Assembly (NCBI GenBank): GCA_003170595.1 | Contig: PMZA01000445.1 | Location: forward strand, 1-32,914 | DNA length: 32,914 bases | Direction of reading: 5' to 3' | Source of the DNA: Armatimonadota bacterium | Lineage (GTDB): Bacteria > Armatimonadota > Zipacnadia > Zipacnadales > FEN-943 | Shown here: piece after piece, positions 621 through 30,573 of the stretch | Layout of the letters: the number at the start of each line of letters is the position of its first letter | How positions within the stretch are numbered: the first letter of the stretch is position 1 | Notes under the pieces: model-generated | Seen by the model: only the letters and a program-made list of their open reading frames with translations | Database searches by the model: none | Told to the model about the DNA's origin: nothing | Program-made: the position numbers and the translations under genes

Positions 621-627
621 TAGAGGC

Positions 628-2247
628 GTGGCGTATCAGGCACAACGGCGTTTGCGTCCTCCACAAGAGCTATTCGCTCTACGCGACGAGCTGCTGGACT
701 GGTGGCAGTCGCCCGGCCAGGCGGTCTACGTGTATGGAGGCGCGTGCCAGGCGAGGCGTGCGCGCGAGGTGGCGTCGGATTTCGCCCAACGTCTCGGCCC
801 GCGGCTGGCGGGCGGCTCCCCTCAGGATGTTGGCCTCTACACCGCCGGCTGCCACGGCCTGTGTTCGGTAGGACCCACAGTGTACGTTGCCCCTCTAGGC
901 GTCTTCTACGTGGACCTCACGGTTGACGATGTCGGCCCCATTGTCCGGCGGACTCTGGGCGAGGGCGAAATCCTCGACGATCTCACGCTCTGGGATGCAG
1001 CCACCGGGCGCCACATCCCCCTCAAGCAGGACGTACCGTTCCTCAGACTCCAGACGCGGCGGCTCATGCGTAGCTGCGGCGAGGTCGATCCCCGTCGCAT
1101 CGAGGACAGCCTCCGGCGCGGCGGGTACTCGGCGCTGGCGCTGGCGCTGGAAGGCATGGCCACCGAGGACATCGCTGCGGTCGTGGAGGCTTCCGGGCTG
1201 CGTGGACGCGGCGAGACGGATGCCCCCTGCGCGGAGAGATGGGCGGCCTTCACTAAAGCCTCGGCGGCTCGAAGGCGCCTGACGGCCTACGTGAAACGCT
1301 GGGACACTGCGGCGGCGACCGACTGCACGCTACTGGAGGGCGACCCTCACTTGGTTCTCGAAGGCATGGCTCTCGCGGCATTGGCGACGGGGTGCGAGGT
1401 GGGGCAGCTGCTGGTACCGCCCGGGCGCGATGTGGCCCTGGCAACGATGGAGGAAGCCATTGAGCAGGCCTGCGCCTACGGTCTGCTGGGCGAGAACATC
1501 CTTGGGACCAGATTCTCGTTCACAGTAGAGGTGTGCGCCTCTCGGCCCCTGAGATGGCCGACCGAGAACGAGGGTGAGGGGTGGTCTGCGTCGGGATCCT
1601 GCGAGCTTCGTCATAACGTCGAGACGCTGGCGAATCTCCCCGGGCTAGTGGCCAGGGGAGCGGCCGAGTTCCGCAGTGTTGGCCCACAGGAGTGCCCTGG
1701 CACGAGGCTTGTGTCGCTCGGAGGAGACCTGCGCTACCGAGGTGTAGTCGAAGTGCCCTGTGGAACGCCCGTGGTGGACATCATCGAGAAGCTGGGAGGC
1801 GGCGGTAAGAGCGGGGAGTCGCCGCAGGGCGTGTGCCTGGGCGGACCGGCAGGCAGGATTCTGCCCATGAGTCTGCTGGCCAGGACCGCATACGGTGTGG
1901 GGCCCGACGCGGCGGACGTGGTGGCCTTTGAGAACCCCGATAGCGTGGTTAGTCGCGTACGGCAGGCCGCGGCCTACGAGGCAGAGGAGGCCTGTGGCCG
2001 ATGCGCCCCTTGCAGGATCGGCACCAAGCGCGTCGTGGAGATCCTCGACGAACTGCTCCTGTGCGAAGGCAGCCCCTCGGCGGTCGCAGACCTGAGGGGC
2101 ATCGGCGAGGCCCTGACGTTGACCGCCGGCTGCGATCAGGGCGCCCACTGCGCGGACTCTGTTCTCTCCGCCATCGCTTCCTTTGAGGAGACCTTCCTCG
2201 CCCACCTTTCCGGTGGACCTTGCCCGTCGCCGGCCCGTGAGGCGTGA
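628..2247 (+). CDS. divergent NuoF-like protein lacking FMN/NADH motifs
   Basis: This 539-aa protein aligns along its length with NuoF/HydB-type subunits, including the two paralogues in this window. It has a thioredoxin-like N-terminal domain with GCHGLC (C75, C79), an SLBB-like segment (GVVEVPCGTPVVDIIEKL) and the C-terminal [4Fe-4S] motif CGRCAPC (C456, C459, C462) plus C502 at the right spacing. The flavin domain is degenerate: after GLRGRG (190-195) the Gly-rich loop is replaced by ETDAPCAERW, the acidic NxDEGDPGAF segment is absent, and the FVCGEETALLASLEG segment is gone. One N-terminal [2Fe-2S] Cys is Tyr36. The frame is intact with normal codon use, so it is not an obvious pseudogene. 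It ends 6 bases before the FdhA-like gene and probably partners with it. I infer an FMN-free electron-relay or structural subunit; NAD(H) reactivity is unlikely. GTG start chosen by the RBS at 614-620. Confidence 0.8.
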   Translation: MAYQAQRRLRPPQELFALRDELLDWWQSPGQAVYVYGGACQARRAREVASDFAQRLGPRLAGGSPQDVGLYTAGCHGLCSVGPTVYVAPLGVFYVDLTVDDVGPIVRRTLGEGEILDDLTLWDAATGRHIPLKQDVPFLRLQTRRLMRSCGEVDPRRIEDSLRRGGYSALALALEGMATEDIAAVVEASGLRGRGETDAPCAERWAAFTKASAARRRLTAYVKRWDTAAATDCTLLEGDPHLVLEGMALAALATGCEVGQLLVPPGRDVALATMEEAIEQACAYGLLGENILGTRFSFTVEVCASRPLRWPTENEGEGWSASGSCELRHNVETLANLPGLVARGAAEFRSVGPQECPGTRLVSLGGDLRYRGVVEVPCGTPVVDIIEKLGGGGKSGESPQGVCLGGPAGRILPMSLLARTAYGVGPDAADVVAFENPDSVVSRVRQAAAYEAEEACGRCAPCRIGTKRVVEILDELLLCEGSPSAVADLRGIGEALTLTAGCDQGAHCADSVLSAIASFEETFLAHLSGGPCPSPAREA

Positions 2248-2253
2248 CACGTC

Positions 2254-4968
2254 ATGCTCATGACGATAGACGACACAGCCTGCGAATACCGGTCTGGCGA
2301 GACGGTTCTTGAGGTCGCCCGGCGTCACGGCATCGACATACCGTCCCTGTGCGATGACCCGCAGGTGCGGGCGCGCGGGACGTGCCGGCTGTGCATGGTG
2401 GAGGTGGATGGCGAGGATCGTCCCGTCCCGGCCTGCATGACTGCGGCGGCGGAGGGCCTGAGTATTCGCACCGAGACGCCGCGGCTGGCCTCAGCAAGAC
2501 GGACGGTTCTAGAACTGCTGCTGTCGGATCATCCCGTGGAATGCAGCGGTTGTGAGCAATCCGGTAGCTGTCGGCTCGAGGAGCTGGCCCTCCGCTACAA
2601 GGTCCGCGCCAGCCGGTTCCTGGGCGCCCGCCACAGCGTTCCTGCGGCGTCGGACGCCAACCCCTTCATCCTTCGCGACCCCGCCCGGTGCCTTCTCTGC
2701 GGACTTTGCGTTGAGGCCTGCCGCGAGCTTGAAGGCGTGGGAGGCCTGCGGATCGCGGGACGAGGGTTCGACGCCCACATCGAGCATCTTACGGAAGGTG
2801 ACGGGGCCCGTGGGGGCTGCAGGCTCTGCGGCCGCTGCGTATCGGTGTGTCCTGCGGGCGCCTTGACGGAACGCAAGCGCAAGGGCCTGGGGCGTCTGGC
2901 CGAGGCGCGCAAGGTGCGCTCGGTATGCCCGCATTGCGCCGTCGGCTGTGAACTTGAGATCAACGTGCATGAAGGCGAGATAGCGGGGATCACGTCGAGT
3001 GGTGGCTATCTGTGCGTACGGGGCAGGTACGCCTACGACTTCGTGCACAGCCCTGATCGTATGACGGTCCCGCTGGCGCGCCACGGCCACGGCGCCTTGG
3101 GGGGCCACCTCCGGCAGGTCTCGTGGGACGCGGCCCTGGGTCTTGCCGCGGAGAGCCTGCAGCGGGTAGTGGCGCAGCATGGCCCGGAATCTGTCGCCGT
3201 CCTCGGTTCGTGCAAGGCCACCAACGAGGCCAACTACGTTCTGCAGAAGTTCGCCCGCGCGGTGCTTGGCACGAACAACATCGACAACGGCGCCGGGACC
3301 TGCGAGACGCCTAGGGTGATCCGAGGGGACCTGGAGCTTGGCACCGACCTGATGACGAACTCCTTCGAGGACTTCGAGCGCGCGTCGGTCATCCTGCTCG
3401 TAGGCTCGGACCCTGAACAAACCCACCCGGTTCTCAGCGCGCGCCTCCGACGTGCGGCCCGCATGGGCACCCGCCTGATCGTCGTCGACCCCCGGAGGAT
3501 CGACCTGACGGAGCAGGCCAGTACGTACCTGCGGCTGAGGGTGGGGAGCGAGGTCGCGCTGATCAACGCGCTGGTGAAGGTGATCCTCGACGAGGGCCTT
3601 TTCGACGGGCCCTTCGTGCTGGCGCACACCACGGGCATACACGATTTGGCCGAGTCAGTACACGCCGTGAGGATGGGCGAAGTCGCCCGCCAGACCGGCC
3701 TCGCCCAAGATGCGATCGAAGGCGTCGCCCGCCAGATCGCCGCCGCCGAGAGCGTCATGTTCGTATACACGACCGGGGCAGCTCATCCCCTCTGCGGTCA
3801 CGAGGTCGGCGCGGCGCTGAGGAATCTGGCCCTGCTCACTGGCAACGTCGGTCGCGACGGAGCAGGGACCAACGCGCTCCGGCTGCAGAACAACGCTCAG
3901 GGCGTCTGCGACATGGGCTGCCTGCCTGACGTCCTGCCCGGCTACCAGCCGGTGACCGATGCCGCAGTGCGCGCGAAGTTCGAGGCCGCGTGGGGGGTGA
4001 ACCTCCCGTCCGAGCCAGGCGTGGGCAGGGCCGGACTCCTGGACGCCATCCTCTCGGGCAGGATCAAGGCGCTCTATGTCATGGGCGAGAACCCCGCCGT
4101 CTCCTACCCCGATCCCGGCCGTACACGCCGCGCCCTGGAAAGCCTTGAGCTGCTGATCGTGCAGGACATCTTTTCGACGGAGACTGCGCAGCAGGCGGAC
4201 GTGGTGCTGCCTGCCGAGGCCTGGGCCGAGGTCGACGGGACCTACACCAGCACGGAGCGACGAGTGCAGCGGGTCCGGGCGGCTGTCCCGTCAGCCTGCG
4301 ATGTCCGCCCGGATTGGGAGATCGTGTGCCGGGTTGCCGAAGGCATGGGCCACCCGATGGGGTACCCCTTCGCTGAGGCGATATGGGACGAGGTCGCAGC
4401 CCTGTCCCCTCTCTTCTCGGGAATCACCTACGACCGGCTCGAGACGGGCGGCCTGCAATGGCCGTGCACGAACAGCTACGATTCGGGACGCAAGACCCTC
4501 CACGCCCTCGTGCATACCGACGGCGTTCGGGAAAGCTTCCGGCCGGTGCAAAGATCGGAAGCCTTGCCCGGCGCGGACGTCGATGACGAGTACCCGCTCC
4601 TGCTGACCACGGGCAAACGCCTGTACCACTACCAGCCCGGGACCACTGCCCAGCGCGCCGAGGGCCTCGACGACCTTTGGCCCGAGGACGTGCTGGAGGT
4701 CTCGCCGGCGGATGCAGCCCGGCACAACGCCACCGATGGCCGGCGGATCCGGGTGGTGTCGCGGCACGGGGAGACGGTGGCGACGGTGTGGGTGAGCGAC
4801 CGCACCGCGCCGGGCGTGGTCTTCCTCTCGCCCCACCCGCGGCGCGCGGGTAACCGCGAACTGGGCCTGTATGGCATGGACCGGCTAGCGGCCTCCACAG
4901 AGCATGGGGCCTGCGCAGTGCGCATGGAGTCCGTGGAGGCCGCCGTCATCGGCGGCCATGGAGGCTGA
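2254..4968 (+). CDS. FdhA-like molybdopterin oxidoreductase with altered active site
   Basis: This 904-aa protein has the architecture of NAD-linked formate dehydrogenase alpha subunits: a NuoG-like [2Fe-2S] domain (CDDP..CRLCMVEV), a His-Cys3 [4Fe-4S] site (HPVECSGCEQSGSC), two [4Fe-4S] motifs (CLLCGLCVEAC, CRLCGRCVSVCP), then the FDH-type [4Fe-4S]/bis-MGD catalytic domain from about residue 225 and a C-terminal molybdopterin-binding domain. The metal-ligand Cys is kept (C350), but the following residue, catalytic His in formate dehydrogenases, is Glu351 (TCETP). The Lys that links cluster and pterin in CVKG is Arg256, and the RGQNN motif around Arg543 reads RLQNN. The paralogue at 27837 has the canonical residues at all these places. 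Formate oxidation therefore cannot be assumed; the substrate is unknown. It follows the degenerate NuoF by 6 bases and lies upstream of ndk and cooS. Confidence 0.85.
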   Translation: MLMTIDDTACEYRSGETVLEVARRHGIDIPSLCDDPQVRARGTCRLCMVEVDGEDRPVPACMTAAAEGLSIRTETPRLASARRTVLELLLSDHPVECSGCEQSGSCRLEELALRYKVRASRFLGARHSVPAASDANPFILRDPARCLLCGLCVEACRELEGVGGLRIAGRGFDAHIEHLTEGDGARGGCRLCGRCVSVCPAGALTERKRKGLGRLAEARKVRSVCPHCAVGCELEINVHEGEIAGITSSGGYLCVRGRYAYDFVHSPDRMTVPLARHGHGALGGHLRQVSWDAALGLAAESLQRVVAQHGPESVAVLGSCKATNEANYVLQKFARAVLGTNNIDNGAGTCETPRVIRGDLELGTDLMTNSFEDFERASVILLVGSDPEQTHPVLSARLRRAARMGTRLIVVDPRRIDLTEQASTYLRLRVGSEVALINALVKVILDEGLFDGPFVLAHTTGIHDLAESVHAVRMGEVARQTGLAQDAIEGVARQIAAAESVMFVYTTGAAHPLCGHEVGAALRNLALLTGNVGRDGAGTNALRLQNNAQGVCDMGCLPDVLPGYQPVTDAAVRAKFEAAWGVNLPSEPGVGRAGLLDAILSGRIKALYVMGENPAVSYPDPGRTRRALESLELLIVQDIFSTETAQQADVVLPAEAWAEVDGTYTSTERRVQRVRAAVPSACDVRPDWEIVCRVAEGMGHPMGYPFAEAIWDEVAALSPLFSGITYDRLETGGLQWPCTNSYDSGRKTLHALVHTDGVRESFRPVQRSEALPGADVDDEYPLLLTTGKRLYHYQPGTTAQRAEGLDDLWPEDVLEVSPADAARHNATDGRRIRVVSRHGETVATVWVSDRTAPGVVFLSPHPRRAGNRELGLYGMDRLAASTEHGACAVRMESVEAAVIGGHGG

Positions 4969-4974: not shown

Positions 4975-5499
4975 ATGCCCGAGACACAGGCCAGGACAGC
5001 GACAACTCAAGCCCTCGCGACCGAGACGCAGGTCGAGGAGACCTTCGTGCTGATAAAGCCCGACGCCGTGCGCCGCAAGCTCGTGGGCGAGATCGTGGGC
5101 CGCTTGGAGCACAGGGACCTCAAGATGGTCGCGGCGAGATTGGTCAGGCCGACGCGAGAACTCGCCGGGCAGCACTACGGCGACGAGATCGCGCAGCGGT
5201 ATGGCGAAGAGATCCGGAACGCTTTGCTCGACTATGTGTGCGGTGGACCTTGCCTGGCCATGGTATGGCGCGGCCCGGAGGCTGTGGCGACGGCGCGAGG
5301 CGCCGTCGGCCTGAGGCCCCAACCCGGCGACTGCGAACCGGGGAGCGTCCGGCGCGATTTTGGTTGCGACACGATCGAGGCATCCCGGGCGGAGCGGCGG
5401 GCCCTGGAGAACTTGGTGCACACATCGGACGCGCATGGATCGGCCCAGCAGGAGATCAGGCTTTGGGGCCTGATGGACGAGAGACAGCTCAGGCAGTGA
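4975..5499 (+). CDS. ndk: nucleoside diphosphate kinase (long-form, divergent)
   Basis: The 174-aa product carries the NDP kinase fold signatures: FVLIKPDAVRRKLVGEI near residues 23-39, the HY segment, GPCLAMVWRG, PGSVRRDFG and the catalytic histidine in NLVHTSD (H149). The enzyme passes phosphate from ATP to NDPs through a phosphohistidine. It has a roughly 20-residue N-terminal extension and an insert before the His motif, as in the longer NDK group. The usual PFF segment and GATNP motif are replaced (RYGEEIR, GLRPQPG), so activity is likely but not certain. It starts 6 bases after the FdhA-like stop and ends 16 bases before cooS, inside a redox operon, an unusual location for a housekeeping gene. 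Confidence 0.88.
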   Translation: MPETQARTATTQALATETQVEETFVLIKPDAVRRKLVGEIVGRLEHRDLKMVAARLVRPTRELAGQHYGDEIAQRYGEEIRNALLDYVCGGPCLAMVWRGPEAVATARGAVGLRPQPGDCEPGSVRRDFGCDTIEASRAERRALENLVHTSDAHGSAQQEIRLWGLMDERQLRQ

Positions 5500-5515: not shown

Positions 5516-7453
5516 ATGTCGCAGATGGCAAAGACGATTGACCCGGCGAGCCAGTTGATGATCGAGTGCGCGGCCTGCGAGGGCATCGGCCTCACGTGGG
5601 ACCGCCTCGAAGCGATGCAGCCCCAGTGCGGCTTCGGCAAGCTCGGCGTGTGCTGCACGACGTGTCAGATGGGGCCTTGCAGGATCGACCCCTTCGGCAC
5701 GGGCCCGAGCGAGGGCGTGTGCGGTGCTACCGCGCAGACCATCGTGGCCCGCAACCTGGCGCGGAAGATCGCTGCCGGCTGCGCCGCCCATTCCGACCAC
5801 GGCCGAACCGTGGCCGAGGCCCTGTTGCTTGCGGCCGAGAATCCGGACAGCGGCTACAAGATCAAGGACGAAAAGAAGCTCAGAGTCGTCGCGGAAGAGT
5901 TCGGCCTCGCGGTTGACGGCAAGTCCGTCGAGGCGATCGCGAAAGCGGTGGCCGAGGCATGCCTGGGCGAGTTCGGCAAGCTCCACGGTGAGCTCGTCAT
6001 GGCCCAGCGCGCCCCGGAGCCGCGAAAGGCTCTGTGGCGGCAACTGGGCATCATGCCCGGCGCCATCGACCGCGAGGTTGTGCGCCTGCTCCACCAGACG
6101 AACATGGGCGTGGATGCCGACCCCACGAACCTGCTGCTCTCGGGGATGCGCTGCGCTCTGGCCGATGGCTGGGGCGGATCGATGATGGCCACCGATCTGC
6201 AGGACATCCTCTTCGGCTCGCCCAAGCCGATCCGGACGAAGACGAACCTCGGGGTGCTGAAGGCCCCCAAGGTCAACGTGATCGTGCACGGCCACGAGCC
6301 GGTGCTCTCGGACATGCTCGTCGAGGCGTCGCGCGATCCGGAGATCCTCGCGGCGGCCGCGGCTGTCGGTGCCGACGGCATCCAGCTCGCGGGCATCTGC
6401 TGCACGGGCAACGAGATCCTCATGCGCCGCGGCGTCCCCTCGGCCGGGTCCTTCCTGCACCAGGAGCTCGCGCTGCTGACCGGCGCCGTCGAGGCCATGA
6501 TCGTCGACGTGCAGTGCTGCATGCCTGGCCTGCCGAGGCTGGCGGACCACTATCACACCCAGATCATCACCACCTCGCCCAAGGCGAAGATGCCGGGCGT
6601 CCGCCACATGCAGTTCGACGAGAACCGGGCCTACGAGGTGGCGAAAGAAATTCTCCTGGCGGCGATAGAGGCCTTCCCGAAGCGTGAAGCCGCGCGGGTA
6701 AACATCCCCAAGGAAGAGGTCGATCTCGTGGCGGGCTTCACGGCCGAGTACGTGCGCACGCTCCTGGGCGGTCGCTTCCGCCCGTCGTACCGCCCGCTCA
6801 ACGACGCGATCATCTCCGGGCGAATCCGTGGAGTGGCCGGCGTCGTCGGCTGCGAGAACCCGCACCTCACGCAGGGCAAGAGCCACGTGGACATGATGAA
6901 GGAGCTCATCCGCAACGACGTGCTGGTGGTGTCGAGCGGGTGCTCGGCTCTCGCGGCGGCGCGCGAAGGATTGCTGACCCCCGAGGCGGCGCGGATACAC
7001 GCCGGCCGTGGGTTGGCCGAGGTGTGTGAGGCCGTGGGGATGCCGCCCATCCTGCACGTTGGGGCCTGCGTGGACAACAGCCGCATCCTCATCGCGTGTT
7101 GCGAGATGCTCAAGGAGGGCGGGCTCGGCAACGACATCTCCGACCTGCCTGCCGCGGGTGCCGCGCCCGAATGGATGTCGGAGAAGGCGATCACCATCGG
7201 CTTCTACGTGGTGGCCTCGGGGATCTACACGATCTTCGGCGAGCCCCAGCCGATGATGGGCTCGCCCGAGGTGCGCGACCTGATGTGCCGCGAGTTCGAG
7301 GAGATCGTCGGCGGCCGCTACGACTTCGAGGCCGACGCGATCAAGGCGGCGCACATGATGATCGAGCACATGGACCGCAAGCGGGCCGCCTTGAAGCTCC
7401 AGCCGATGATGTACGAGGCCGCACCGAAGGAACTTGCGCTGGCGTCGGCTTAG
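5516..7453 (+). CDS. cooS: anaerobic carbon monoxide dehydrogenase, Ni-Fe-S catalytic subunit
   Basis: The 645-aa protein is a bacterial CooS/AcsA, the usual length for the family. It interconverts CO and CO2 and in this context supplies CO to acetyl-CoA synthase. The D- and B-cluster cysteines sit in CGFGKLGVCCTTCQMGPC (C38, C46, C47, C50, C55) followed by GVCGAT near 69. C-cluster ligands are visible as His260 in HGHEP, the GICCTGNE segment near 295, VQCCMPG near 333, GCENP near 447, SGCSA near 477 and GACVDNSR near 527. All expected ligands are present. It is co-directional with cooF 12 bases downstream and with acsB further on, which favours a role in the ACS complex. It can also be called acsA. 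Confidence 0.97.
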   Translation: MSQMAKTIDPASQLMIECAACEGIGLTWDRLEAMQPQCGFGKLGVCCTTCQMGPCRIDPFGTGPSEGVCGATAQTIVARNLARKIAAGCAAHSDHGRTVAEALLLAAENPDSGYKIKDEKKLRVVAEEFGLAVDGKSVEAIAKAVAEACLGEFGKLHGELVMAQRAPEPRKALWRQLGIMPGAIDREVVRLLHQTNMGVDADPTNLLLSGMRCALADGWGGSMMATDLQDILFGSPKPIRTKTNLGVLKAPKVNVIVHGHEPVLSDMLVEASRDPEILAAAAAVGADGIQLAGICCTGNEILMRRGVPSAGSFLHQELALLTGAVEAMIVDVQCCMPGLPRLADHYHTQIITTSPKAKMPGVRHMQFDENRAYEVAKEILLAAIEAFPKREAARVNIPKEEVDLVAGFTAEYVRTLLGGRFRPSYRPLNDAIISGRIRGVAGVVGCENPHLTQGKSHVDMMKELIRNDVLVVSSGCSALAAAREGLLTPEAARIHAGRGLAEVCEAVGMPPILHVGACVDNSRILIACCEMLKEGGLGNDISDLPAAGAAPEWMSEKAITIGFYVVASGIYTIFGEPQPMMGSPEVRDLMCREFEEIVGGRYDFEADAIKAAHMMIEHMDRKRAALKLQPMMYEAAPKELALASA

Positions 7454-7465: not shown

Positions 7466-7996
7466 ATGAAAGGCTCGGCGATATGGGTGGAGATCGAGAA
7501 GTGCCTGGGGTGCAAAACCTGCGAGGTCGAGTGCGCGCTGGCCCACTGCGAGGTCAGCGACATCGTCGAGGTGGTCACTCGGGCGCTGCGGCCGACGCAC
7601 CGCGTGAGCGTCACGCCGGTGTCCTACGAGATCGCCGTCCCGATCCAGTGCCGGCACTGCGAGGACGCCCCGTGCATAGCCGTGTGCCCGTCGGGCGCGC
7701 TGACCAAGCTCGGGCCCGAGCAGGCTGTGGTCCACGACGCCGACAGGTGCATCGGCTGCAAGAGCTGCATCATCGTATGCCCCTTCGGCGCGGTCGCGAT
7801 CGGGCCCGATGGTCGGACGATCGTGAAGTGCGACCTCTGCGCCGCGCGAGCTGCCGAAGGGCAGATGCCGGCGTGCGTGAGCGGTTGCCCGACGAAGGCG
7901 CTGCATTTCGGGGAGATCGACGATCTCGCCCGCGAAGCGCGCAAGAAGGCGGCGAGGAATTTGCTCGAGGCGATGTTGGCGGAGAGCGAGGGTTAG
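7466..7996 (+). CDS. cooF: CooF-like four-cluster ferredoxin
   Basis: The 176-aa protein has four cysteine motifs in the order seen in CooF/HycB-type electron-transfer subunits: CLGCKTCEVECA, CRHCEDAPCIAVCP, CIGCKSCIIVCP and CDLCAARA..PACVSGCP. These bind four [4Fe-4S] clusters. CooF carries electrons between CODH and a partner complex. Here the partner is plausibly the NuoE/NuoF/HoxU-like module encoded next. There is no signal peptide or membrane segment, so it is cytoplasmic. A strong AGGAGAGGTG overlaps the cooS stop and precedes ATG 7466. Confidence 0.93.
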   Translation: MKGSAIWVEIEKCLGCKTCEVECALAHCEVSDIVEVVTRALRPTHRVSVTPVSYEIAVPIQCRHCEDAPCIAVCPSGALTKLGPEQAVVHDADRCIGCKSCIIVCPFGAVAIGPDGRTIVKCDLCAARAAEGQMPACVSGCPTKALHFGEIDDLAREARKKAARNLLEAMLAESEG

Positions 7997-8018: not shown

Positions 8019-8495
8019 ATGGCCCTGGAAATCGAGGACACAACCGAGCTGGTCGAGATCATCCTCAGGAGCTACGCGCCGGAGCCCTCGGCTCTGATCG
8101 CGATGCTGCAGGACATCCAGCGCGACTGCCGGCATCTGCCCCGCGAGGCGCTGGTGCGAGTCGGCGAGCACCTCGGTGTGCCGCTGAGCCAGGTCTATCG
8201 CGTGGCAACCTTCTACGCCACCTTCAGCCTCGAGCCTCGTGGCAGGTACGTGCTCCGCGTATGCGACGGGACGGCGTGCCACCTGAAGGGCTCAGGGCTT
8301 CTGGTCGAGGCCATCCAGCGCCGCCTCGGCATCGGCCCGGACGAGACGACCGAGGATGGGCTGTTCACGCTGGAGACCGTGCACTGCCTCGGGGCGTGCG
8401 CTCTGGCGCCCGTGATGGTGGTCAACGATAAGTTCCACCCCCATCTGGACATGAGCAAAGTGGCACGCATCATCGATGCGTACGCAAAGGGGTAA
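8019..8495 (+). CDS. NuoE/HydC-type [2Fe-2S] thioredoxin-like subunit
   Basis: The 158-aa protein matches the NuoE/HydC/HndA family: a helical N-terminus (LIAMLQDIQRDCRHLP), the YRVATFYATF segment, then the thioredoxin-like [2Fe-2S] domain with CDGTAC and CLGAC ligands. It passes electrons to or from the FMN of its NuoF partner, encoded 5 bases downstream. The order nuoE, nuoF+ferredoxin, HoxU-like equals the core of electron-bifurcating HydABC-type and NAD-linked complexes, but no hydrogenase gene is present and the neighbours are CODH genes. Confidence 0.93.
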   Translation: MALEIEDTTELVEIILRSYAPEPSALIAMLQDIQRDCRHLPREALVRVGEHLGVPLSQVYRVATFYATFSLEPRGRYVLRVCDGTACHLKGSGLLVEAIQRRLGIGPDETTEDGLFTLETVHCLGACALAPVMVVNDKFHPHLDMSKVARIIDAYAKG

Positions 8496-8500
8496 GTCGC

Positions 8501-10354
8501 ATGGCACTAGTCGCCGACGCCAGGAGCTTCGATGAACTCTGTGAGAGGATCCGGACCACGCATGCGCCCGGCCGGTCCGTCGTGTGCGTATGTGGGGGCA
8601 CCGGCTGCCGGGCGTCGGAGAGTGAACTACTCGCGCCCGCCTTCGAGCAGGCCCTGTCGGAGAGCGGCCTTGCCGGCGCCGTCGACCTCCGCGTCACCGG
8701 ATGCCACGGCCTGTGCGAGTATGGCCCGCTGGTCATCGTCCACCCCCAGCGGTTCTTCTACCAGCGCGTGAAGCCCGACGACGCCGCCGAGATCGTGCGG
8801 CAAACGGTCCTCGGCGGCGAGCCCGTCGAGCGTCTGCTCTACAGGGATCCTGCCACCGGCCGCCTGATGCTCCACGACCATGAGGTGCCCTTCTATACCC
8901 GCCAGCAGCGCATCGCCATGCGCGACAACGGGGTCATCGATCCCCGTCGCCTTGACGACTACATCGCCCGCGGCGGCTATGACGCGCTACGCAAGGTCCT
9001 GACCTCGATGTCGCCCGAGCAGGTGATCGACGAGGTGGAGAAGTCGGGGCTCCGTGGCCGCGGCGGCGGCGGCTTCCCCACCGGACGCAAGTGGCGGGCT
9101 TGCCGCAACGCGCCGGGCGATGTCCGCTACGTCATCTGCAACGGTGACGAGGGCGATCCCGGCGCCTTCATGGACGAGGGCATCATGGAGGGCAACCCGC
9201 ACGCGGTCCTCGAGGGGATGGTGGTCGGCGCCTACGCGATCGGCTCACGCGAAGGGTTCATCTACGTGCGCGGCGAGTACCCCCTGGCCGTCGAGCGCCT
9301 GAGCGTCGCCGTCGAACAGGCCCGCCACTACGGGCTCCTGGGCTATGACATCCTCGGCTCGGGCTTCAGCTTCGACGTCACCATCGCCCGCGGCGGAGGC
9401 GCCTTCGTCTGCGGAGAGGAGACCGCCCTGCTGGCCTCCCTGGAAGGCAAAGCCGGTGAGCCGCGGCCCAAGTATGTCTTCCCCGTCGAGGTCGGCCTGT
9501 GGGGCAAGCCCACGACGATCAACAACGTCGAGACCTGGGCCTGCATCGCGCCGATCCTTACTATCGGCGCCGACTGGTTCGCCGCCATCGGCACCGAGAA
9601 GAGCAAGGGCACCAAGGTCTTCTCGGTAGTCGGCAAGGTCGAGAACACCGGCCTCATCGAGGTCCCCATGGGGATCACGCTACGCGAGATCATCTTCGAC
9701 CTGTGCGGCGGAATCAAGGGCGGCAAGAAGCTCAAGGCCGTGCAGACCGGCGGGCCGTCGGGCGGATGCATCCCCGCCGAGCTGCTCGATCTGCCCGTGG
9801 ACTACGAGCACCTGACCGAAGCCGGCTCGATGATGGGCTCCGGCGGCATGATCGTCATGGACCAGGAAACCTGCATGGTGGACCTGGCGCGCTACTTCGT
9901 CGCCTTCCTCGCCGAGGAGTCCTGCGGCAAGTGCACGCCCTGCCGTGAGGGCCTGCGTCAGATGCTCGCCCTTCTCACCCGGATCACCCGCGGCGAGGGT
10001 CAGCCCGGCGACGTCGAGGTCCTCAGCGAACTCGCCGACACCCTCTCCGATGCGGCCCTCTGCGGCCTCGGCACGACCGCCGCCAACCCCGTCCGCACGA
10101 CCCTGCGCTACTTCCGCGATGAGTACGAGGCCCACGTCACCGAACACCGGTGCCCCGCAGGCTTCTGCCGGGACCTCATCACCTTCTGGATCAACACGGA
10201 CGCCTGCACGGGCTGCCAGGCGTGCGCAAAGGTCTGCCCGGTGCAGGCGATCTCGGGCGAGGCCAAGAAGCCCCACGTGCTGGATCAGGCGACGTGCATC
10301 CGCTGCGGCCTGTGCCGGATGACCTGCCGGTTCGAGGCGGTGCAGGTGGAGTGA
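8501..10354 (+). CDS. NuoF/HydB-type FMN/NAD(P)H subunit with C-terminal 2[4Fe-4S] domain
   Basis: The 617-aa protein has a thioredoxin-like N-terminal domain (CGGTGC, GCHGLC), intact FMN/NAD motifs (GLRGRGGGGFPTGRKW, NGDEGDPGAFMDEG, GAFVCGEETALLASLEG, INNVETW), an SLBB segment, the [4Fe-4S] motif SCGKCTPC, a His/Cys stretch (AHVTEHRCPAGFC) and a C-terminal ferredoxin with two [4Fe-4S] motifs (CTGCQACAKVCP, CIRCGLCRMTC). This is the HydB arrangement known from electron-bifurcating hydrogenases, where the His/Cys stretch and the ferredoxin extension belong to the bifurcating core. Unlike the other two NuoF paralogues here, only this one has the ferredoxin. I infer an NAD(P)H-linked, possibly bifurcating, partner of CODH. 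Confidence 0.93.
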   Translation: MALVADARSFDELCERIRTTHAPGRSVVCVCGGTGCRASESELLAPAFEQALSESGLAGAVDLRVTGCHGLCEYGPLVIVHPQRFFYQRVKPDDAAEIVRQTVLGGEPVERLLYRDPATGRLMLHDHEVPFYTRQQRIAMRDNGVIDPRRLDDYIARGGYDALRKVLTSMSPEQVIDEVEKSGLRGRGGGGFPTGRKWRACRNAPGDVRYVICNGDEGDPGAFMDEGIMEGNPHAVLEGMVVGAYAIGSREGFIYVRGEYPLAVERLSVAVEQARHYGLLGYDILGSGFSFDVTIARGGGAFVCGEETALLASLEGKAGEPRPKYVFPVEVGLWGKPTTINNVETWACIAPILTIGADWFAAIGTEKSKGTKVFSVVGKVENTGLIEVPMGITLREIIFDLCGGIKGGKKLKAVQTGGPSGGCIPAELLDLPVDYEHLTEAGSMMGSGGMIVMDQETCMVDLARYFVAFLAEESCGKCTPCREGLRQMLALLTRITRGEGQPGDVEVLSELADTLSDAALCGLGTTAANPVRTTLRYFRDEYEAHVTEHRCPAGFCRDLITFWINTDACTGCQACAKVCPVQAISGEAKKPHVLDQATCIRCGLCRMTCRFEAVQVE

Positions 10355-10356
10355 CC

Positions 10357-11112
10357 ATGACACCCTTCACGATCAACAACCTTCCGGTGGAAGCCGAGCC
10401 CGGCGAGACCGTCCTCCAGGTCGCGCGGCGGTATGGCATCGAGATACCGACCCTGTGCTACCACGAGGCGGTGACGGCCTATGCGTCGTGCCGGCTGTGC
10501 ATCGTAGCGGCGACCGAGGGCGGACGGACGCGCATCGTGACCTCGTGTACTTACCCCGCTCGCGAGGGCCTGGAGGTCCACACCGACACCGAGGCCGTCC
10601 GCGCTCTCCGGCGGGTGCTGCTGGAGCTGCTGCTGGCCGAGGCGCCGGCGTCCGAGCAGCTGAGGGAGTACGCGGCCGGCCTGGGCGTCACGACCACGCG
10701 CTTCCCGAGCGAGGACCCCGAGAATAAGTGCATCCTCTGCGGCCTCTGCGAACGGGTGTGCAGCGAGCACGCCCACGTCGGCTCGATCAGCTTCGCCCAC
10801 CGGGGCCCGCGGCGGAAGATGACGACGCCCTTCGATGAGCCGCCGGATCAATGCAAGGGCTGCACGGCCTGCGCTTACGTCTGCCCGACCGGCGCGATCG
10901 ACGTGCGGATCGGCGCCGGTGGGATGGAGCTGGAGCCATGGTGCGCGCGAGTGGAGATGGTGGCGTGCGCGGAGTGCGGGATGAGGTTCGCGCCCGCGCC
11001 AGAGATGGAGGAGTTGGCCGAGAAGGGGAAGGTGGAGCCGGCGGTGATGGCACTGTGCCCGATCTGCCGGCGAAAAGCGCATGCGAGAGTCCTGTTGACA
11101 GGCAAAGCGTGA
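10357..11112 (+). CDS. HoxU/NuoG-N-terminal-like iron-sulfur protein with CxxC tail
   Basis: Start ATG 10357 lies 2 bases after the nuoF stop; the frame is open further upstream but that part overlaps nuoF. The 251-aa product has a NuoG/HoxU-like [2Fe-2S] domain (CYHE..CRLCIVAA..C) and two [4Fe-4S] motifs (CILCGLCERVC, CKGCTACAYVCP). The His-Cys3 cluster usual in this family is missing: the region around LLLAEAPASEQLREYAAG has no cysteine. The C-terminus adds two CxxC pairs (C204/C207 and C234/C237) like a zinc or rubredoxin-type knuckle, similar to tails of HycF/HyfH-type ferredoxins. There is no catalytic domain, so it is an electron wire, probably between the NuoEF module and CooF/CODH. 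Confidence 0.85.
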   Translation: MTPFTINNLPVEAEPGETVLQVARRYGIEIPTLCYHEAVTAYASCRLCIVAATEGGRTRIVTSCTYPAREGLEVHTDTEAVRALRRVLLELLLAEAPASEQLREYAAGLGVTTTRFPSEDPENKCILCGLCERVCSEHAHVGSISFAHRGPRRKMTTPFDEPPDQCKGCTACAYVCPTGAIDVRIGAGGMELEPWCARVEMVACAECGMRFAPAPEMEELAEKGKVEPAVMALCPICRRKAHARVLLTGKA

Positions 11113-11170: not shown

Positions 11171-13366
11171 ATGTCGAAGACTGTCGCTATCGCCGCAATC
11201 CGCGGGTCTCATGGGGTGGTCGACCTCGTCGAAGAGGAGTACGAGGCCGCTCTGAGTCTGCACGGCCTCGACGGGAAGATCGGATTTCCCGCCACGGCCT
11301 TCTACCTGCCCATGGCGTGCGCGCTGCTGGGGCTGGAAGTGGAGACTCTCGGCCAGATGGGCGTGGTCCTCGACGAGGCCAAGAGCTTGCTCGCCGATGA
11401 GCCGACCGAGAACATCTGGCTGCCGTACCTGAGCAGCGCCCTCGACGCCGGCATCGCTACCCTCCTCGGCCAGGAGATGCTGATGGCCCTCCGCTACCTC
11501 GACGGCCGCGAGCCCCAGCCGGGGTGGCACGGGTTCATCTCCGACACGATCCTGCGATCGCTCGGCATCCAGCTCGTCGACGGCCGCCTGCCCGGCTTCG
11601 CGGCGATCGTGGGCGCGGCCCCGAACAACGAGACCGCCGTGCATATCCTCCGCGAGCTGCAAAAGCGGAGCATCCTCACCTTCCTCGTCGGCAACGACGA
11701 CGGCCGCACGATGCGCGATCAGCTCCTCGAGGAGGGCATCATCCCCGACGATCCGGCCGCTGGCTGGGACACCTACACCGTGCCGCTGGGGCCGGACACC
11801 CACTCGCTGATCTACGCGCTCAACTGGGCGATCCGCGGCGCCCTCACCTTCGGCGGCGTGCAAAAGGGCGACTGGGAGCGCGCGCTCAAGTATTGCCGCG
11901 ACAGAATCTTCGCCTTCGGCATGGGGCTCGGGCCCATCGACGATCTCAAGTTCGCCGCCGGTGCTGGTGCGATCAACATGGGCTTCCCGGTCATATGCGA
12001 CACGCTCATTCCGGAGATCAGGCCCACGGGCGTCTGCACCTACGAGGAGTTGGTCCACGAACTCGACCACGCCAAAATCGTGCCCACGTGCATCGAAGTG
12101 CGCGGGGTGAAGGTGACGGTCAAAGAGATCGACATCCCAGTCCCGGTGGCGGCGGCCTTCGAGGGCGAGACGGTCCGCAAGGCCGACATGCACTGCCAGT
12201 TCGGCGGCAAGTACTCCACCTGCTTCGAGTACGTGAAGATGCGCGAGATGGATGAGCTCGAGGACGGCAAAATCACTGTCCTCGGCGACGACTTCGACCA
12301 GATCGAGGAAGGCGGCGCGCGCCCCATGTTCACCTTCATCGAGGTGGCCGGGCGGAAGATGCACCAGGACTTCGAGCCCATCCTCGAACGGCAGATCCAC
12401 ACGATCCTCAACCACGCCCTCGGCGTCTTCCACATGGGCCAGCGCGACATGCCGTGGGTGCGCATCAGCAAGGATGCGGCCAAGGCCGGCCTGCGGATGA
12501 AGCACCTCGGCTCGCTGCTGATCGCCGAGTTGCACGCGCGCTTCGGCGCGATCGTGGACAAGATCCAGGTCACCATCTGCACCGACGAGAGCCGGTTCGA
12601 ACCGCTGCTCACCGAGGCGAAGCTGGCCTACGCGACCCGCGACGAGCGCATCGGCGGCATGACCGACGACTCGGTCGACATCTTCTACTCGTGCACCCTC
12701 TGCCAGTCCTACGCGCCCAACCACGTGTGCATCATCAGCCCCGAGCGCCTCGGCCTTTGCGGCGCCTACAACTGGCTCGACGGCCGCGCCTCCTTCGAGA
12801 TCAACCCCGCCGGGCCCAACCAGCCCGTGGACAAGGGGCAGACGATCGACCAGGTACGCGGCCAGTGGTCGGGCGTCAACGAATTCGTCAACGCCGCCTC
12901 GAACAAGTCCATCGAGTGCTTCAACGCCTACTCGCTGATGGAGGACCCGATGACCTCCTGCGGATGCTTCGAGTGCATCGTGGCCATCCTCCCCGAGGCG
13001 AATGGGGTCATGATCGTCAACCGCGAGTACGAGGGCATGACGCCGATAGGCATGCCCTTCACAACGCTCGCGGGCACGGTCGGTGGTGGGGCGCAGACGC
13101 CCGGCTTCCTCGGAGTGGGGCGGCTATATATCACGTCGAAGAAGTTCATCTCGGCCGAGGGCGGGCTCCCGCGAGTGGTATGGATGCCCAAGGAACTAAA
13201 GGACGGCGTCATGGATCTGCTCCGCAAGCGGGCCGAGGAGATGGGCATACCCGACCTCCCCGACAAGATCGCCGACGAGACCGTCGCCACGACGAGCGAA
13301 GAGCTGCTCGACTATCTGATGAAGGTCGACCACCCGGCACTGACGATGGATTCCCTGCTGGGATAA
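11171..13366 (+). CDS. acsB: acetyl-CoA synthase, ACS subunit of CODH/ACS
   Basis: The 731-aa protein is a full-length bacterial AcsB (about 729 aa in Moorella). It condenses CO from CODH, a methyl group from the corrinoid protein and CoA into acetyl-CoA at the Ni-Ni-[4Fe-4S] A-cluster. All A-cluster ligands are present: C508, C511, C520 and C530 in the segment CTLCQSYAPNHVC..C, and the Cys-Gly-Cys that chelates distal Ni at C597-G598-C599. Each is exactly two residues later than in the Moorella enzyme, so the protein is nearly colinear with it. The N-terminal CODH-docking domain, absent from archaeal ACS, is included. AcsC follows 12 bases downstream. Confidence 0.98.
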   Translation: MSKTVAIAAIRGSHGVVDLVEEEYEAALSLHGLDGKIGFPATAFYLPMACALLGLEVETLGQMGVVLDEAKSLLADEPTENIWLPYLSSALDAGIATLLGQEMLMALRYLDGREPQPGWHGFISDTILRSLGIQLVDGRLPGFAAIVGAAPNNETAVHILRELQKRSILTFLVGNDDGRTMRDQLLEEGIIPDDPAAGWDTYTVPLGPDTHSLIYALNWAIRGALTFGGVQKGDWERALKYCRDRIFAFGMGLGPIDDLKFAAGAGAINMGFPVICDTLIPEIRPTGVCTYEELVHELDHAKIVPTCIEVRGVKVTVKEIDIPVPVAAAFEGETVRKADMHCQFGGKYSTCFEYVKMREMDELEDGKITVLGDDFDQIEEGGARPMFTFIEVAGRKMHQDFEPILERQIHTILNHALGVFHMGQRDMPWVRISKDAAKAGLRMKHLGSLLIAELHARFGAIVDKIQVTICTDESRFEPLLTEAKLAYATRDERIGGMTDDSVDIFYSCTLCQSYAPNHVCIISPERLGLCGAYNWLDGRASFEINPAGPNQPVDKGQTIDQVRGQWSGVNEFVNAASNKSIECFNAYSLMEDPMTSCGCFECIVAILPEANGVMIVNREYEGMTPIGMPFTTLAGTVGGGAQTPGFLGVGRLYITSKKFISAEGGLPRVVWMPKELKDGVMDLLRKRAEEMGIPDLPDKIADETVATTSEELLDYLMKVDHPALTMDSLLG

Positions 13367-13378: not shown

Positions 13379-14716
13379 ATGGCTCTGAGCGCAATCGAGA
13401 TCTACAAGCTCTTGCCGCAGACGAACTGCCGTGACTGCGGGTTCCCGACCTGCCTGGCCTTCGCGATGCAACTCGCGCAGAAGAAGACCTCGCTCGACAA
13501 GTGCCCGACCGCCAGCGAAGAGGCGAAGGCGGCGCTCGAGGGCTCGTCGGCTCCGCCCATCAACCTCGTGACGATTGGCGCGGGCGAGCGCGCGCTGAAG
13601 ATCGGCAATGAGACCGCGATGTTCCGCCACGAGGACGCCTTCCATCATCCGTGCGGGCTGGCCGTCACCGTGCCCAGCGACCTCGATGCGGCGCAGCTTG
13701 CGAAGCGTGCGGCTGACCTTTCGGCGCTGCAGTTCGACCGCGTCGGACAGAGCACGGGCGTGGACCTCCTTGCCTTGCAGCACGTGCCGGGCAGCGATCT
13801 GGCCGCGGCTGCGCGTGAAGTAGCCGCCAACGGCAGCCTGCCGATCGTTCTCATGACCGACGACCCAGTGGCGATGGCAGCCGCGGCTGCGGCGATCGCT
13901 GACAAACGCCCCCTCCTCTATGCCGCGACTAGCGCGAACCTCGACGACATGGCCGCGATCGCCAAGCAGCACAACCTGCCCCTGGCGGTGCGCAGCGATG
14001 GCGTCGCCAACCTCGCCGACCTCGCGCAGAGGGCGTCGGAGGCGGGTGTGACCGAGATCGTGCTCGACAGTGGCGCCCGCACTCCCGCGGAGATGCTCGC
14101 CGACTTGACCGCGATCCGGCGCGCCGCTCTGTTGAAGAAGAACCGGCAGGTGGGCCACCCGACGATCGTCGTGGCGATGGGTGACTCGCCGCTGAGCAAG
14201 GTGGTCAACGCGTCGGTAGCGATCGCGAAGTACGCCGGCATCGTGGTCGTGGACTTCGACGACCCGGCGCTGCTCCTGCCCCTCGTCACCGCGAGGCTGA
14301 ACATCTACACCGACCCGGAGAAGCCGATCCAGGTGCAGGCCGGCATCTACGAGGTCGGCACGCCGACGGAGGACTCGCCGGTGCTGGTGACGACGAACTT
14401 CTCCCTGACCTATTTCACCGTCGAGGGCGACGTGTCGGCGAGCAAAGTGCCTGCCTGGATACTCGTGGTCGACACCAAGGGCACGTCGGTCCTAACCGCC
14501 TGGGCGGCGGAGGACTTCACGGCCGAGACGATCTCGAAGGCGCTGGCCACGAGCGGCATCGCCGACAAGGTCAAGCACCGCACGGTCATCCTCCCCGGCG
14601 GCGTCGCGGTATTGAGCGGCAAGCTCGAGGACCAGTCGGGTTGGACCGTCGTTGTCGGACCACGTGAGAGCGCCGGCATACCGGCCTTTCTGAAAGCCTT
14701 ACCGGTGCCCGCGTAG
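13379..14716 (+). CDS. acsC: corrinoid/iron-sulfur protein large (gamma) subunit
   Basis: The 445-aa protein is the large CFeSP subunit, family length. It has the N-terminal [4Fe-4S] domain with C17, C20, C25 and C42 (NCRDCGFPTC, DKCPT), a TIM-barrel middle part and a C-terminal corrinoid-binding domain. It carries the methyl group on cobalt from AcsE to AcsB, and its cluster serves reductive reactivation. A clear GGAGG lies shortly before ATG 13379. The next gene is its activator and acsD follows. Confidence 0.97.
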   Translation: MALSAIEIYKLLPQTNCRDCGFPTCLAFAMQLAQKKTSLDKCPTASEEAKAALEGSSAPPINLVTIGAGERALKIGNETAMFRHEDAFHHPCGLAVTVPSDLDAAQLAKRAADLSALQFDRVGQSTGVDLLALQHVPGSDLAAAAREVAANGSLPIVLMTDDPVAMAAAAAAIADKRPLLYAATSANLDDMAAIAKQHNLPLAVRSDGVANLADLAQRASEAGVTEIVLDSGARTPAEMLADLTAIRRAALLKKNRQVGHPTIVVAMGDSPLSKVVNASVAIAKYAGIVVVDFDDPALLLPLVTARLNIYTDPEKPIQVQAGIYEVGTPTEDSPVLVTTNFSLTYFTVEGDVSASKVPAWILVVDTKGTSVLTAWAAEDFTAETISKALATSGIADKVKHRTVILPGGVAVLSGKLEDQSGWTVVVGPRESAGIPAFLKALPVPA

Positions 14717-14724
14717 GACCTGAC

Positions 14725-16641
14725 ATGAGCGCACACACTGTCATCTTCGAACCTGGAGAACGCTGCGTCTCGGTGGACGACGGGACGACGCTGGCCGACG
14801 CGGCGGCGCTGGCGGGCATCGCCCTTCCCTTGTCGTGCGGGGGCCACGGCGCTTGCGGCAACTGCGGCGTCCTCGTGCGCGCCGACGAAACGCCCTCGCG
14901 GTCCGGCGGCAAGGGCTGGGTGCTTGCATGCCAGACGCGGGTCCACGAAGACCTGGTTGTCGACGTCGGGCGGGCCGAGCGCTTGGCCGCCCAGCTTGAC
15001 GAGAGCGTCAGCGATGCTGACGTTCGCGGCTTCGAAGCCGTACCCGCCGGCGACGGCCACCCGCTGGTGCGCGCGCTGGTCGTGCGGATGAACCCGCCGA
15101 CGACGCAGGACAATTCGCCCGACCTGAGCCGCTTTCGCACCGCGCTGCGCAAGGCAGATCCGGAGCCCGCGTCCATCTCAATCAGCCTCCCTACTCTACA
15201 GTCGCTCCCCGGTGTCCTTCGCCGCAGCGGCTTCGAGGTCGAGGTCGTGCTGGCCGACGAAGGGGAGGTCTCGCGGGTCCTTTCCGTGTCGGGGCCTGGT
15301 CGCGGGTCGCCTCCGAGACATGGGGTGGCGATGGACATCGGCACTACGACGGTCGCCGGCCAACTCGTCGACATGACGCAGGCGATGTCCCTCGGGACGG
15401 CCGTTCACCGCAACGCGCAGGCCCAATTCGGTGACGACGTCATCAGCCGCATTCTTCGCTCGGAGGAGCATCCCACCGGCTTGCGGGATCTGCGCGCATC
15501 AGTTCTGGGGACTGTGAACGGCCTGATCCGCCAGCTTGCCCGGTCGGCCGGTCTCCGGCCCACCGACATCGTCGCCGCGTCCATCGCCGGCAACGCCACG
15601 ATGACGAGCTTCCTGCTGGGTATCGAGGCCCCGGCCATTCGGCGCGCACCGCATGTCCCGGCCGCCGGCGACCTGCCGGTGTTCCGGGCGGAAGAGGTCG
15701 GGCTCGAGATGAACCTGGCGGGCGCGGTCTATCTGCACCCGGCGGTCAGCGGCTTCGTCGGCGGCGACATCGTCGCAGGCGTTCTCGCCACTGGCATGGA
15801 CGAAAGCGCCGACCTGTCTCTGCTCATCGACGTCGGCACCAACGGCGAGATCGTCGTCGGGTCTTCGGAGTGGCTGACCTGCTGCTCCTGCTCGGCTGGT
15901 CCGGCCTTCGAGGGCGTGGGGATCGAGGCAGGCATGCAGGCCAGCCGCGGCGCGATCGAGCAGGTCCGCTATGACGCGAGCACCGACGCGCTTGAGCTGC
16001 GCGTGATTGGAGGCGGCCCTCCCGCTGGCATCTGTGGCACCGGTCTGCTGGAGGCGCTCGCCACGCTCTTCGAGGCCGGCATCATCGACCGCAGCGGGCT
16101 CTTCAACGCGGACGCGCCCACCAGGCGACTGAGGCAAAGCGGCTATCAGACGGAGTTCGTGCTGGTGCGTCAAGGCGAGCTGGGCGCCGTGCTGGACATC
16201 GTCCTCACCCAGGCCGACGTGGAGCACCTCATCCGCTCCAAGGCCGCCGTGCACGCGGGCATCACCGTCCTGCTGCGGGCGCTGGGCTTGCGGGCCGAGC
16301 AGATCGCGAAGGTCTACATTGCCGGAGGCTTCGGAGCGCACCTCAATCTCGAGGCAGCGGTCAAGCTCGGCCTGATCCCGGACGTTCCCGCGGAGCGGAT
16401 CGAATACGCGGGCAACAGCTCCTTGCGCGGTGCCTGCGCGAGCCTCATGTCGCGCGCGGCGCGGGAGCGCGTGAGCCGCATCGCCCAGAGCATGACCTAC
16501 CTGGAGCTTAGCGGCGACCCTACCTTCATGGATGAGTACGTGGCGTCGATGTTCCTGCCGCACACGGACCTGAGCAGGTTCCCGTCGGTGAGATGCTGGC
16601 GCCGGCGTTCGCAGGCAAGCGTAGGGCAATCGAGGAGGTAG
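14725..16641 (+). CDS. acsV: corrinoid reductive activator (AcsV/RACE-type, DUF4445)
   Basis: The 638-aa protein has an N-terminal plant-type [2Fe-2S] ferredoxin domain (C38, C44, C47, C69; CGGHGACGNC and ACQT) followed by a linker and a large ASKHA-type ATPase domain (MDIGTTTVAGQLVDM, IDVGTNGEIV, GICGTGLLEAL, IAGGFGAHLNLE). This is the layout of reductive activators of corrinoid enzymes (RACE), which use ATP to return inactive Co(II) to Co(I). Its place between acsC and acsD points to CFeSP as the substrate. The final residues are basic and variable, and the acsD start follows after 3 bases with a strong GAGGAGGT inside this gene. Confidence 0.93.
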   Translation: MSAHTVIFEPGERCVSVDDGTTLADAAALAGIALPLSCGGHGACGNCGVLVRADETPSRSGGKGWVLACQTRVHEDLVVDVGRAERLAAQLDESVSDADVRGFEAVPAGDGHPLVRALVVRMNPPTTQDNSPDLSRFRTALRKADPEPASISISLPTLQSLPGVLRRSGFEVEVVLADEGEVSRVLSVSGPGRGSPPRHGVAMDIGTTTVAGQLVDMTQAMSLGTAVHRNAQAQFGDDVISRILRSEEHPTGLRDLRASVLGTVNGLIRQLARSAGLRPTDIVAASIAGNATMTSFLLGIEAPAIRRAPHVPAAGDLPVFRAEEVGLEMNLAGAVYLHPAVSGFVGGDIVAGVLATGMDESADLSLLIDVGTNGEIVVGSSEWLTCCSCSAGPAFEGVGIEAGMQASRGAIEQVRYDASTDALELRVIGGGPPAGICGTGLLEALATLFEAGIIDRSGLFNADAPTRRLRQSGYQTEFVLVRQGELGAVLDIVLTQADVEHLIRSKAAVHAGITVLLRALGLRAEQIAKVYIAGGFGAHLNLEAAVKLGLIPDVPAERIEYAGNSSLRGACASLMSRAARERVSRIAQSMTYLELSGDPTFMDEYVASMFLPHTDLSRFPSVRCWRRRSQASVGQSRR

Positions 16642-16644
16642 ACC

Positions 16645-17616
16645 ATGCCTTTCGAGAGGCCGAAGGAGAAGTGGCGTGCGGCTGTTAACGAGGTCAGGAT
16701 CGGAGCGACCGCGGCCGAAGGCGGCACGCGCTCGACGACGATCACTGTCGGCGGCGAGGCAACGCTCCCGTTCCTCAACTTCGAGGCGGAAGCCCCTCAC
16801 CGTCCGGTGATCGCGATGGAAGTGCTCGACGTGGCGCCGACGGACTGGCCGACGCCCCTGGTCGATGCCTTCGGCGACGTGTTCGGCGATCCTGCGGCGT
16901 GGGCGCACAAGTGCGTCGAGCAATTCGGGGCTGACATGATCTGCCTCCGCCTCCAGAGCGCCCATCCCGACGCGGGCAACGCCTCGCCCGCCGACTGCGC
17001 CGCGACGGTGAAGAAGGTGCTCGAGACCGTGAGCGTGCCCCTGATCCTCTGGGGCTGTGGCGATCGCGACAAGGACAACGACCTCCTCCCGGCGATCAGC
17101 CAGGCCGCGGCTGGGGAGCGCGTCTGCCTAGGCTCGGCCGTGCATGAGAACTACAAGACCATCGCGGCCTGCGCCCTGGCCGACGGCCACGTGGTCATCG
17201 ACGAGGCGCCCCTCGACATCAACATCCAAAAGCAGGTCAACATCCTCGTCACCGAGATGGGCGTCAAGACCGAGGACATCCTCATCTACCAGTCCACTGG
17301 CGGCCTGGGCTACGGCGTCGAGTACGCCTACACGATCATGGAGCGCACTCGCCTGGCGGCCCTCGGCGGCGACAAGATGCTCTCCATGCCCATGCTCGCC
17401 ATCGTCGGCTCGGAGACCTGGCGGGCCAAGGAGTCGCGCCTGCCCGAGGCCGAAGCGCCTCAGTGGGGCAAGCAGGATGAGCGTGCGATCCTCTGGGAGG
17501 CCGTCACCGCCGAGTTTTTCATGCAGGGCGGGACGGACATCCTGGTGATGTGGCACCCCGAGGCGGTACGGCTCGTGAAGGAATCGATGCTGGCCTACTC
17601 GGCGGCGGCGGTCTGA
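16645..17616 (+). CDS. acsD: corrinoid/iron-sulfur protein small (delta) subunit
   Basis: The 323-aa protein has the length and sequence of the AcsD family. It begins with the typical MPFERPKEKW and contains the GGEATLPFLNFEAEAPHRP segment and TIM-barrel signatures. It forms the CFeSP heterodimer with AcsC, contributing to the corrinoid site and docking with the methyltransferase AcsE, encoded 26 bases downstream. No Fe-S motif is expected or seen. Confidence 0.97.
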   Translation: MPFERPKEKWRAAVNEVRIGATAAEGGTRSTTITVGGEATLPFLNFEAEAPHRPVIAMEVLDVAPTDWPTPLVDAFGDVFGDPAAWAHKCVEQFGADMICLRLQSAHPDAGNASPADCAATVKKVLETVSVPLILWGCGDRDKDNDLLPAISQAAAGERVCLGSAVHENYKTIAACALADGHVVIDEAPLDINIQKQVNILVTEMGVKTEDILIYQSTGGLGYGVEYAYTIMERTRLAALGGDKMLSMPMLAIVGSETWRAKESRLPEAEAPQWGKQDERAILWEAVTAEFFMQGGTDILVMWHPEAVRLVKESMLAYSAAAV

Positions 17617-17642
17617 CGTTTGATGCCACGGAGGCGTCTTAG

Positions 17643-27465: not shown

Positions 27466-27486
27466 TGGGGGCTAGGAGCATCGTCC

Positions 27487-27822: not shown

Positions 27823-27825
27823 CTC

Positions 27826-27830: not shown

Positions 27831-27836
27831 GCGCCC

Positions 27837-30569: not shown

Positions 30570-30573
30570 GACC

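Follow-up and report, generated by a model that had tools for sequence, protein, structure and literature searches.

The question raised by this locus is why a CODH/ACS operon begins with two genes of the formate dehydrogenase (FDH) type whose products have lost or altered the sites at which such an enzyme works. The electron route to CODH is poorly known in acetyl-CoA-pathway bacteria beyond the characterised models, and a conserved pair with its terminal redox sites gone and its clusters kept would amount to a natural experiment on whether the Fe-S chain of the formate dehydrogenase/complex I family can be of use alone. The pair, here named NuoF* and FdhA*, was studied in a window of 32,914 nucleotides that forms an entire contig of a draft Armatimonadota genome (6.45 Mb, 84.5% complete), and it is also present in the MAG Armatimonadetes bacterium SKW107 (G001), which belongs to a different genus of the same family. 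The genes of the window that matter here are as follows.

628..2247, + strand: NuoF*, NuoF/FdsB-like, without FMN and NADH sites; N3 [4Fe-4S] ligands C456, C459, C462 and C502 present
2254..4968, + strand: FdhA*, FDH-type molybdopterin oxidoreductase; N-terminal Fe-S ligands complete
4975..5499, + strand: ndk, the sole nucleoside diphosphate kinase gene found in the genome; operon position identical in SKW107
5516..7453, + strand: cooS, Ni-CODH catalytic subunit (TIGR01702, 647 bits)
7466..7996, + strand: cooF-like, multi-[4Fe-4S] ferredoxin
8019..8495, + strand: NuoE1, canonical
8501..10354, + strand: NuoF1, canonical, with FMN/NADH motifs and C-terminal 2[4Fe-4S]; BfuB/HydB-like
10357..11112, + strand: HoxU1, short Fe-S subunit, HoxU/NuoG-N-terminal-like
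11171..13366, + strand: acsB, acetyl-CoA synthase
13379..18428, + strand: acsC, acsV, acsD and acsE, in the same order as in SKW107 (names from reading the translations, with no HMM behind them)
25202..31365, + strand: NuoE2-NuoF2-FdhA2-FdhD, canonical formate dehydrogenase block, kept in both genomes

NuoF* and FdhA* are intact neighbouring genes separated by a 6-base gap, as an earlier note on this DNA had stated, and they stand first in the CODH/ACS operon. NuoF* starts at GTG 628, with the RBS AGGTGA at 614-619; an alternative in-frame GTG lies at 592, and the alignment of the SKW107 homologue begins at ~628. The earlier note had described the pair as co-directional with cooS and the acs genes, and the common operon holds, but ndk, which lies between FdhA* and cooS, had been overlooked. 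It had also described the pair as lacking a NuoE partner, with the canonical set 20 kb downstream. No NuoE adjoins the pair and the canonical block is where it was said to be, but the nearest NuoE is only ~3 kb away and in the same operon, because NuoE1-NuoF1-HoxU1 (8019-11112) directly follows cooF. This trio resembles the Codh-Bfu order BfuC-BfuB-short BfuA, for which the Bfu paper gives Firmicutes as the only source (PMC9304861).

In SKW107 the operon reads NuoF*-FdhA*-ndk-cooS-cooF-acsB-C-V-D-E and is spread over two contigs. Contig C75 carries NuoF* and FdhA*, the latter leaving the contig end at residue 797, and contig C214 opens with FdhA* residues 833-903, followed by ndk-cooS-cooF-acsB-acsC-acsV-acsD-acsE. 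Both ends of the break fall inside FdhA*, with ~36 residues absent between them, and GC3 is similar for the genes on both contigs (0.60-0.73); we infer that the two contigs adjoin. The co-directional linkage with cooS and the acs genes at the operon head, which the earlier note had read from a single genome, is thus seen in two genera, in SKW107 across a contig break. Profile searches found neither NuoF* nor FdhA*, together or alone, in the other 289 of 291 Armatimonadota genomes. The expected association with CODH/ACS genes and of the two genes with each other was therefore borne out throughout the phylum set, in a small sample of two carriers, both fragmented MAGs. In G002, the third genus of the family, both the pair and an acsB match are missing, and acsB, in most cases together with cooS, occurs without the pair in over a dozen further genomes of the order. 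Because most relatives in the order that have CODH/ACS lack the pair, it is something this family has added and not a general part of CODH/ACS. Outside Armatimonadota, coverage came from a pattern-based scan of genome contigs, which gave no other degenerate members among the matches listed.

NuoF* was compared with 100 canonical NuoF rows. Against this background the NADH site is lost, as had been proposed, the FMN site is lost too, and both losses are repeated in SKW107. The FMN glycine loop GRGGGGFPTG has become GRGETDAPCA in the window and GRGITTVPCA in SKW107, the N-x-D-E flavin ligands N214, D216 and E217 are replaced in both members, and the NADH loop CGEETALxxSxEG is deleted or replaced in both; in NuoF1 numbering, the FMN/NADH positions lost in both are G189, G191, N214, D216, E217 and C304-G305. 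The four N3/B6 [4Fe-4S] cysteines listed above are retained, and PF10589 scores above its cut-off. All Fe-S cysteines counted (7/7) are common to both members, as are 6/13 of the other cysteines. The first Cys of the N-terminal [2Fe-2S] motif is replaced; FdsB of RcFDH is also without an N-terminal [2Fe-2S] cluster (PMC7171172). Neither member reached the TIGR01959 cut-off of 558.65 (177.9 and 169.1 bits), a test that separates weakly because canonical NuoF1 (503.1) and NuoF2 (461.7) also fall below it. An AlphaFold model of NuoF* (pLDDT 86.6, pTM 0.90; TM 0.90 to HydB, 8a6t_B) is of low confidence at residues 308-321, the former place of the NADH loop; because the input alignment was mostly canonical NuoF, this model means that the fold is compatible and is no independent discovery of it.

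For FdhA* we compared alignment columns in 17 rows, 15 FDH-like and two NuoG-type (L051 and L081), and the presence of the latter two makes the column count conservative. L051 and L081 were themselves considered as further degenerate FdhA proteins and dropped, since L051 belongs to a complex I operon and the two fall in a NuoG-containing clade. The altered formate site, also claimed from the letters alone, is real against these rows and is repeated in SKW107. Active-site His351 is Glu in the window and Trp in SKW107; Lys256 of CVKGR, which we take to relay between cluster and pterin, is Arg and Met, respectively; and the Mo-ligand Cys350 is still present in the window (C350-E351) and is Arg in SKW107 (R-W). 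Thus neither copy has the Cys/Sec-His pair of formate dehydrogenase alpha. TIGR01591 (cut-off 666.25) is missed by FdhA* at 621.1 and by the SKW107 copy at 592.8, the latter being truncated, and FdhA2 of the window scores 886.5. The two FdhA* sequences group together in the tree (100/100). Their sister is an FDH of the same order (90/96), and the clade that includes NuoG (100/99) is separate, so that they are not placed with complex I NuoG. An AlphaFold model of FdhA* built from five rows was too poor (pLDDT 56) and was set aside.

Other parts of FdhA* are well preserved. All Fe-S cysteines, which by homology to RcFDH are ligands of clusters A1-A5 (PMC7171172), are present in both copies (19/19), and H93 of the A4 motif is also retained. 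The active-site Arg (Arg587 of RcFDH) corresponds to R543 in the motif NALRLQNNAQG, which is identical in both copies, the window protein keeps 141/172 canonical invariant columns, and the Molybdopterin and Molydop_binding domains are recognised. Because the frame for pterin binding is well kept, as is Arg-QNN, it is possible that FdhA* still binds a pterin. The substitutions E389Q, H512P, K660V and F657W are common to both copies. Identity between the copies is 27% in the metal-ligand loop, compared with 59% over the whole protein, a divergence that is not extreme, since 11% of 11-residue windows have an identity no higher than this. Cysteines outside the Fe-S sites are common to both in 5/9 cases. 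Fe-S cysteines that are all common, other cysteines that are partly so and a loop at 27% indicate constraint on the wiring, and much less or none at the ends. Moreover, recurrence of the site losses in a second genus means that they are not sequencing noise.

Pairwise comparison of the two members (NG86) gave a dN/dS of ~0.27 (0.47/1.76) for NuoF* and ~0.16 (0.35/2.25) for FdhA*, ratios that are rough because dS is near saturation and that are still far from neutral. These values argue that the pair is probably under purifying selection, and against decay. FdhD and a MOSC gene accompany the canonical FDH block, which both genomes retain; hence the pair is a paralogue that is not needed for formate.

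Our best explanation, which we hold tentatively and at somewhat less than an even chance, is that NuoF*-FdhA* is an FDH-type complex minus both catalytic ends, retained to give CODH/ACS an Fe-S conduit or adaptor. The ancestor would have been an NAD-dependent formate dehydrogenase heterodimer of the FdsB-FdsA type, from which both catalytic ends were removed and the iron-sulfur chain was left in place. In RcFDH, electrons travel 76 A between bis-MGD and FMN via clusters A1-A2-A3-A5-B6 (PMC7171172), and by homology ligands for this whole chain appear to be present in the pair, with the working ends absent. The clusters presumably assemble, and the two proteins would form a complex that serves CODH/ACS as a conduit or docking module, through which single low-potential electrons could move between CooF/CODH and another carrier or partner; candidates are ferredoxin, HydABC or, in the window genome, the NuoE1-NuoF1-HoxU1 diaphorase. 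A wire or adaptor is preferred to a new catalytic site because the Fe-S ligands are all kept and the metal-ligand loop is poorly conserved, with the ligand lost in one member. The earlier interpretation, a new task for the co-altered pair, is partly supported, by joint conservation, the operon-head position and purifying selection; the proposal that it takes electrons from a different substrate is not supported. Several points count against a conduit: an N3 cluster without FMN has no known exit; the pterin-binding frame is mostly kept, with Arg543-QNN and, in the window, Cys350, which leaves Mo chemistry a modest chance; and the pair comes from two fragmented MAGs, most order relatives carrying CODH/ACS without it. 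A bolder version, which we regard as rather doubtful, is that the pair is a flavin-free, formate-blind FDH-type Fe-S wire in a CODH/ACS supercomplex, setting electron entry to or exit from CO2-to-CO reduction; it would then be a previously undescribed type of CODH partner. With two genes and a fixed operon position, the pair is a defined target for heterologous tests.

The well-kept frame of FdhA* would also suit a different reading, the one put forward in the earlier note: FdhA* would have remained a bis-MGD enzyme, with another substrate or other ligands, and NuoF*, free of flavin, would let its electrons out to CooF or ferredoxin. The retained invariant columns, the identical NALRLQNNAQG, both recognised domains and the four common substitutions, which look like a remodelled pocket, speak for it; we nevertheless consider it unlikely, as SKW107 lacks the Mo-ligand Cys, the ligand loop is so little conserved between the members, and the Lys of CVKGR has become Arg in one and Met in the other. 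About equally improbable is that the pair has no redox role at all and is a pseudoenzyme acting as scaffold, chaperone or regulator of CODH/ACS assembly. Both catalytic ends are gone, the NuoF* fold is kept and the position at the operon head is fixed, as would be expected of such a protein, but the full canonical set of Fe-S cysteines in FdhA* together with the N3 site exceeds the needs of a plain scaffold, even if clusters can be structural.

In the window, the trio NuoE1-NuoF1-HoxU1 separates cooF from acsB, which suggests another role: the pair could add subunits to a bifurcating complex of the Codh-Bfu kind that includes this trio. Codh-Bfu gene clusters have been described in Firmicutes (PMC9304861). 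The reading has little probability in our view, since SKW107 has the pair and no NuoE-NuoF-HoxU between cooF and acsB, and two genomes of the same order without the pair (G027 and G036) have NuoF1-HoxU1 directly 5' of acsB. Simple decay of a duplicate of the formate dehydrogenase genes is very improbable. The NuoF* branch is very long in the tree, where its placement is unsure, and both genes have a lower GC3 than the window's cooS and acsB; against this, two long open frames persist in two genera at 49-59% identity, dN/dS is far under 1 and the cluster ligands are selectively kept.

The Fe-S conduit reading can be compared with known systems. Nearest are the soluble NAD-dependent formate dehydrogenases FdsABG of Rhodobacter capsulatus and C. 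necator: FdhA* residues 3-862 align with FdsA (9wxb_B, 602 bits; 6tg9_A, 587), the alignment of NuoF* to FdsB extends to the N-terminal thioredoxin-like domain, and the cluster chain A1-A2-A3-A5-B6 is shared by homology. The pair, however, is without the FMN/NADH site and without a NuoE/FdsG partner, its active-site His and relay Lys are replaced, its Mo-ligand Cys is not constrained, and it is linked to CODH/ACS. Within the Bfu family (HydABC, StnABC, Codh-Bfu and Fdh-Bfu), HydB is closest to NuoF* in fold (TM 0.90), Codh-Bfu and Fdh-Bfu clusters are known, and Codh-Bfu was proposed for Firmicutes (PMC9304861); StnC, which has an inactive FdhF domain, sets a precedent for an inactive FDH domain as an electron conduit (PMC10482914). 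Bfu complexes need BfuB with FMN and five clusters (B1-B5), plus BfuC (NuoE), whereas NuoF* has neither FMN nor the C-terminal 2[4Fe-4S] domain, and no NuoE adjoins the pair in either genome.

A second precedent is the FDH-like CISM protein of Dehalococcoides (DET0187), which has Ser for Cys/Sec, shows no formate activity and is proposed to connect a hydrogenase with a dehalogenase (PMC5736913). Like FdhA*, it is an FDH homologue with a replaced active-site ligand and a proposed role in passing electrons between other enzymes (PMC5736913), but it acts in organohalide respiration with the Hup hydrogenase, and a NuoF-like partner and linkage to CODH/ACS are not described there. NuoG of complex I is likewise related to molybdopterin enzymes, lacks Mo and has the N-terminal Fe-S domains in common with FdhA*; FdhA*, in contrast, groups with FDH and keeps the C-terminal pterin-binding domain, and complex I NuoF keeps FMN. 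NuoE/F/G-like proteins near CODH are known at the COG level (PMC6344411), and the new feature here is that the pair has lost sites at both of its ends. No description of a flavin-less NuoF or of such a pair was found in the open-access literature, which is weak evidence of absence.

Several observations concern the surroundings of the operon. An apparently non-coding stretch of several hundred bases lies 5' of NuoF* in both genomes (window 120-628; L041 1984-2848), and an Rfam search found no RNA elements in the window or in either of the two SKW107 contigs. The same genome bin as the window contains a 3545-bp fragment (L192, G000:C13) with a second cooS-acsB-acsD, ~51-54% identical to the window genes, which is either a second CODH/ACS cluster or contamination. 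The ndk gene of the operon is the only NDK match in the window genome, and likewise in SKW107, and thus it is a housekeeping gene carried there in both genera. Between acsE and cooC lies a gene (18449-19144) whose sole Pfam match is DUF166 (PF02593), and its position is conserved in SKW107 and relatives.
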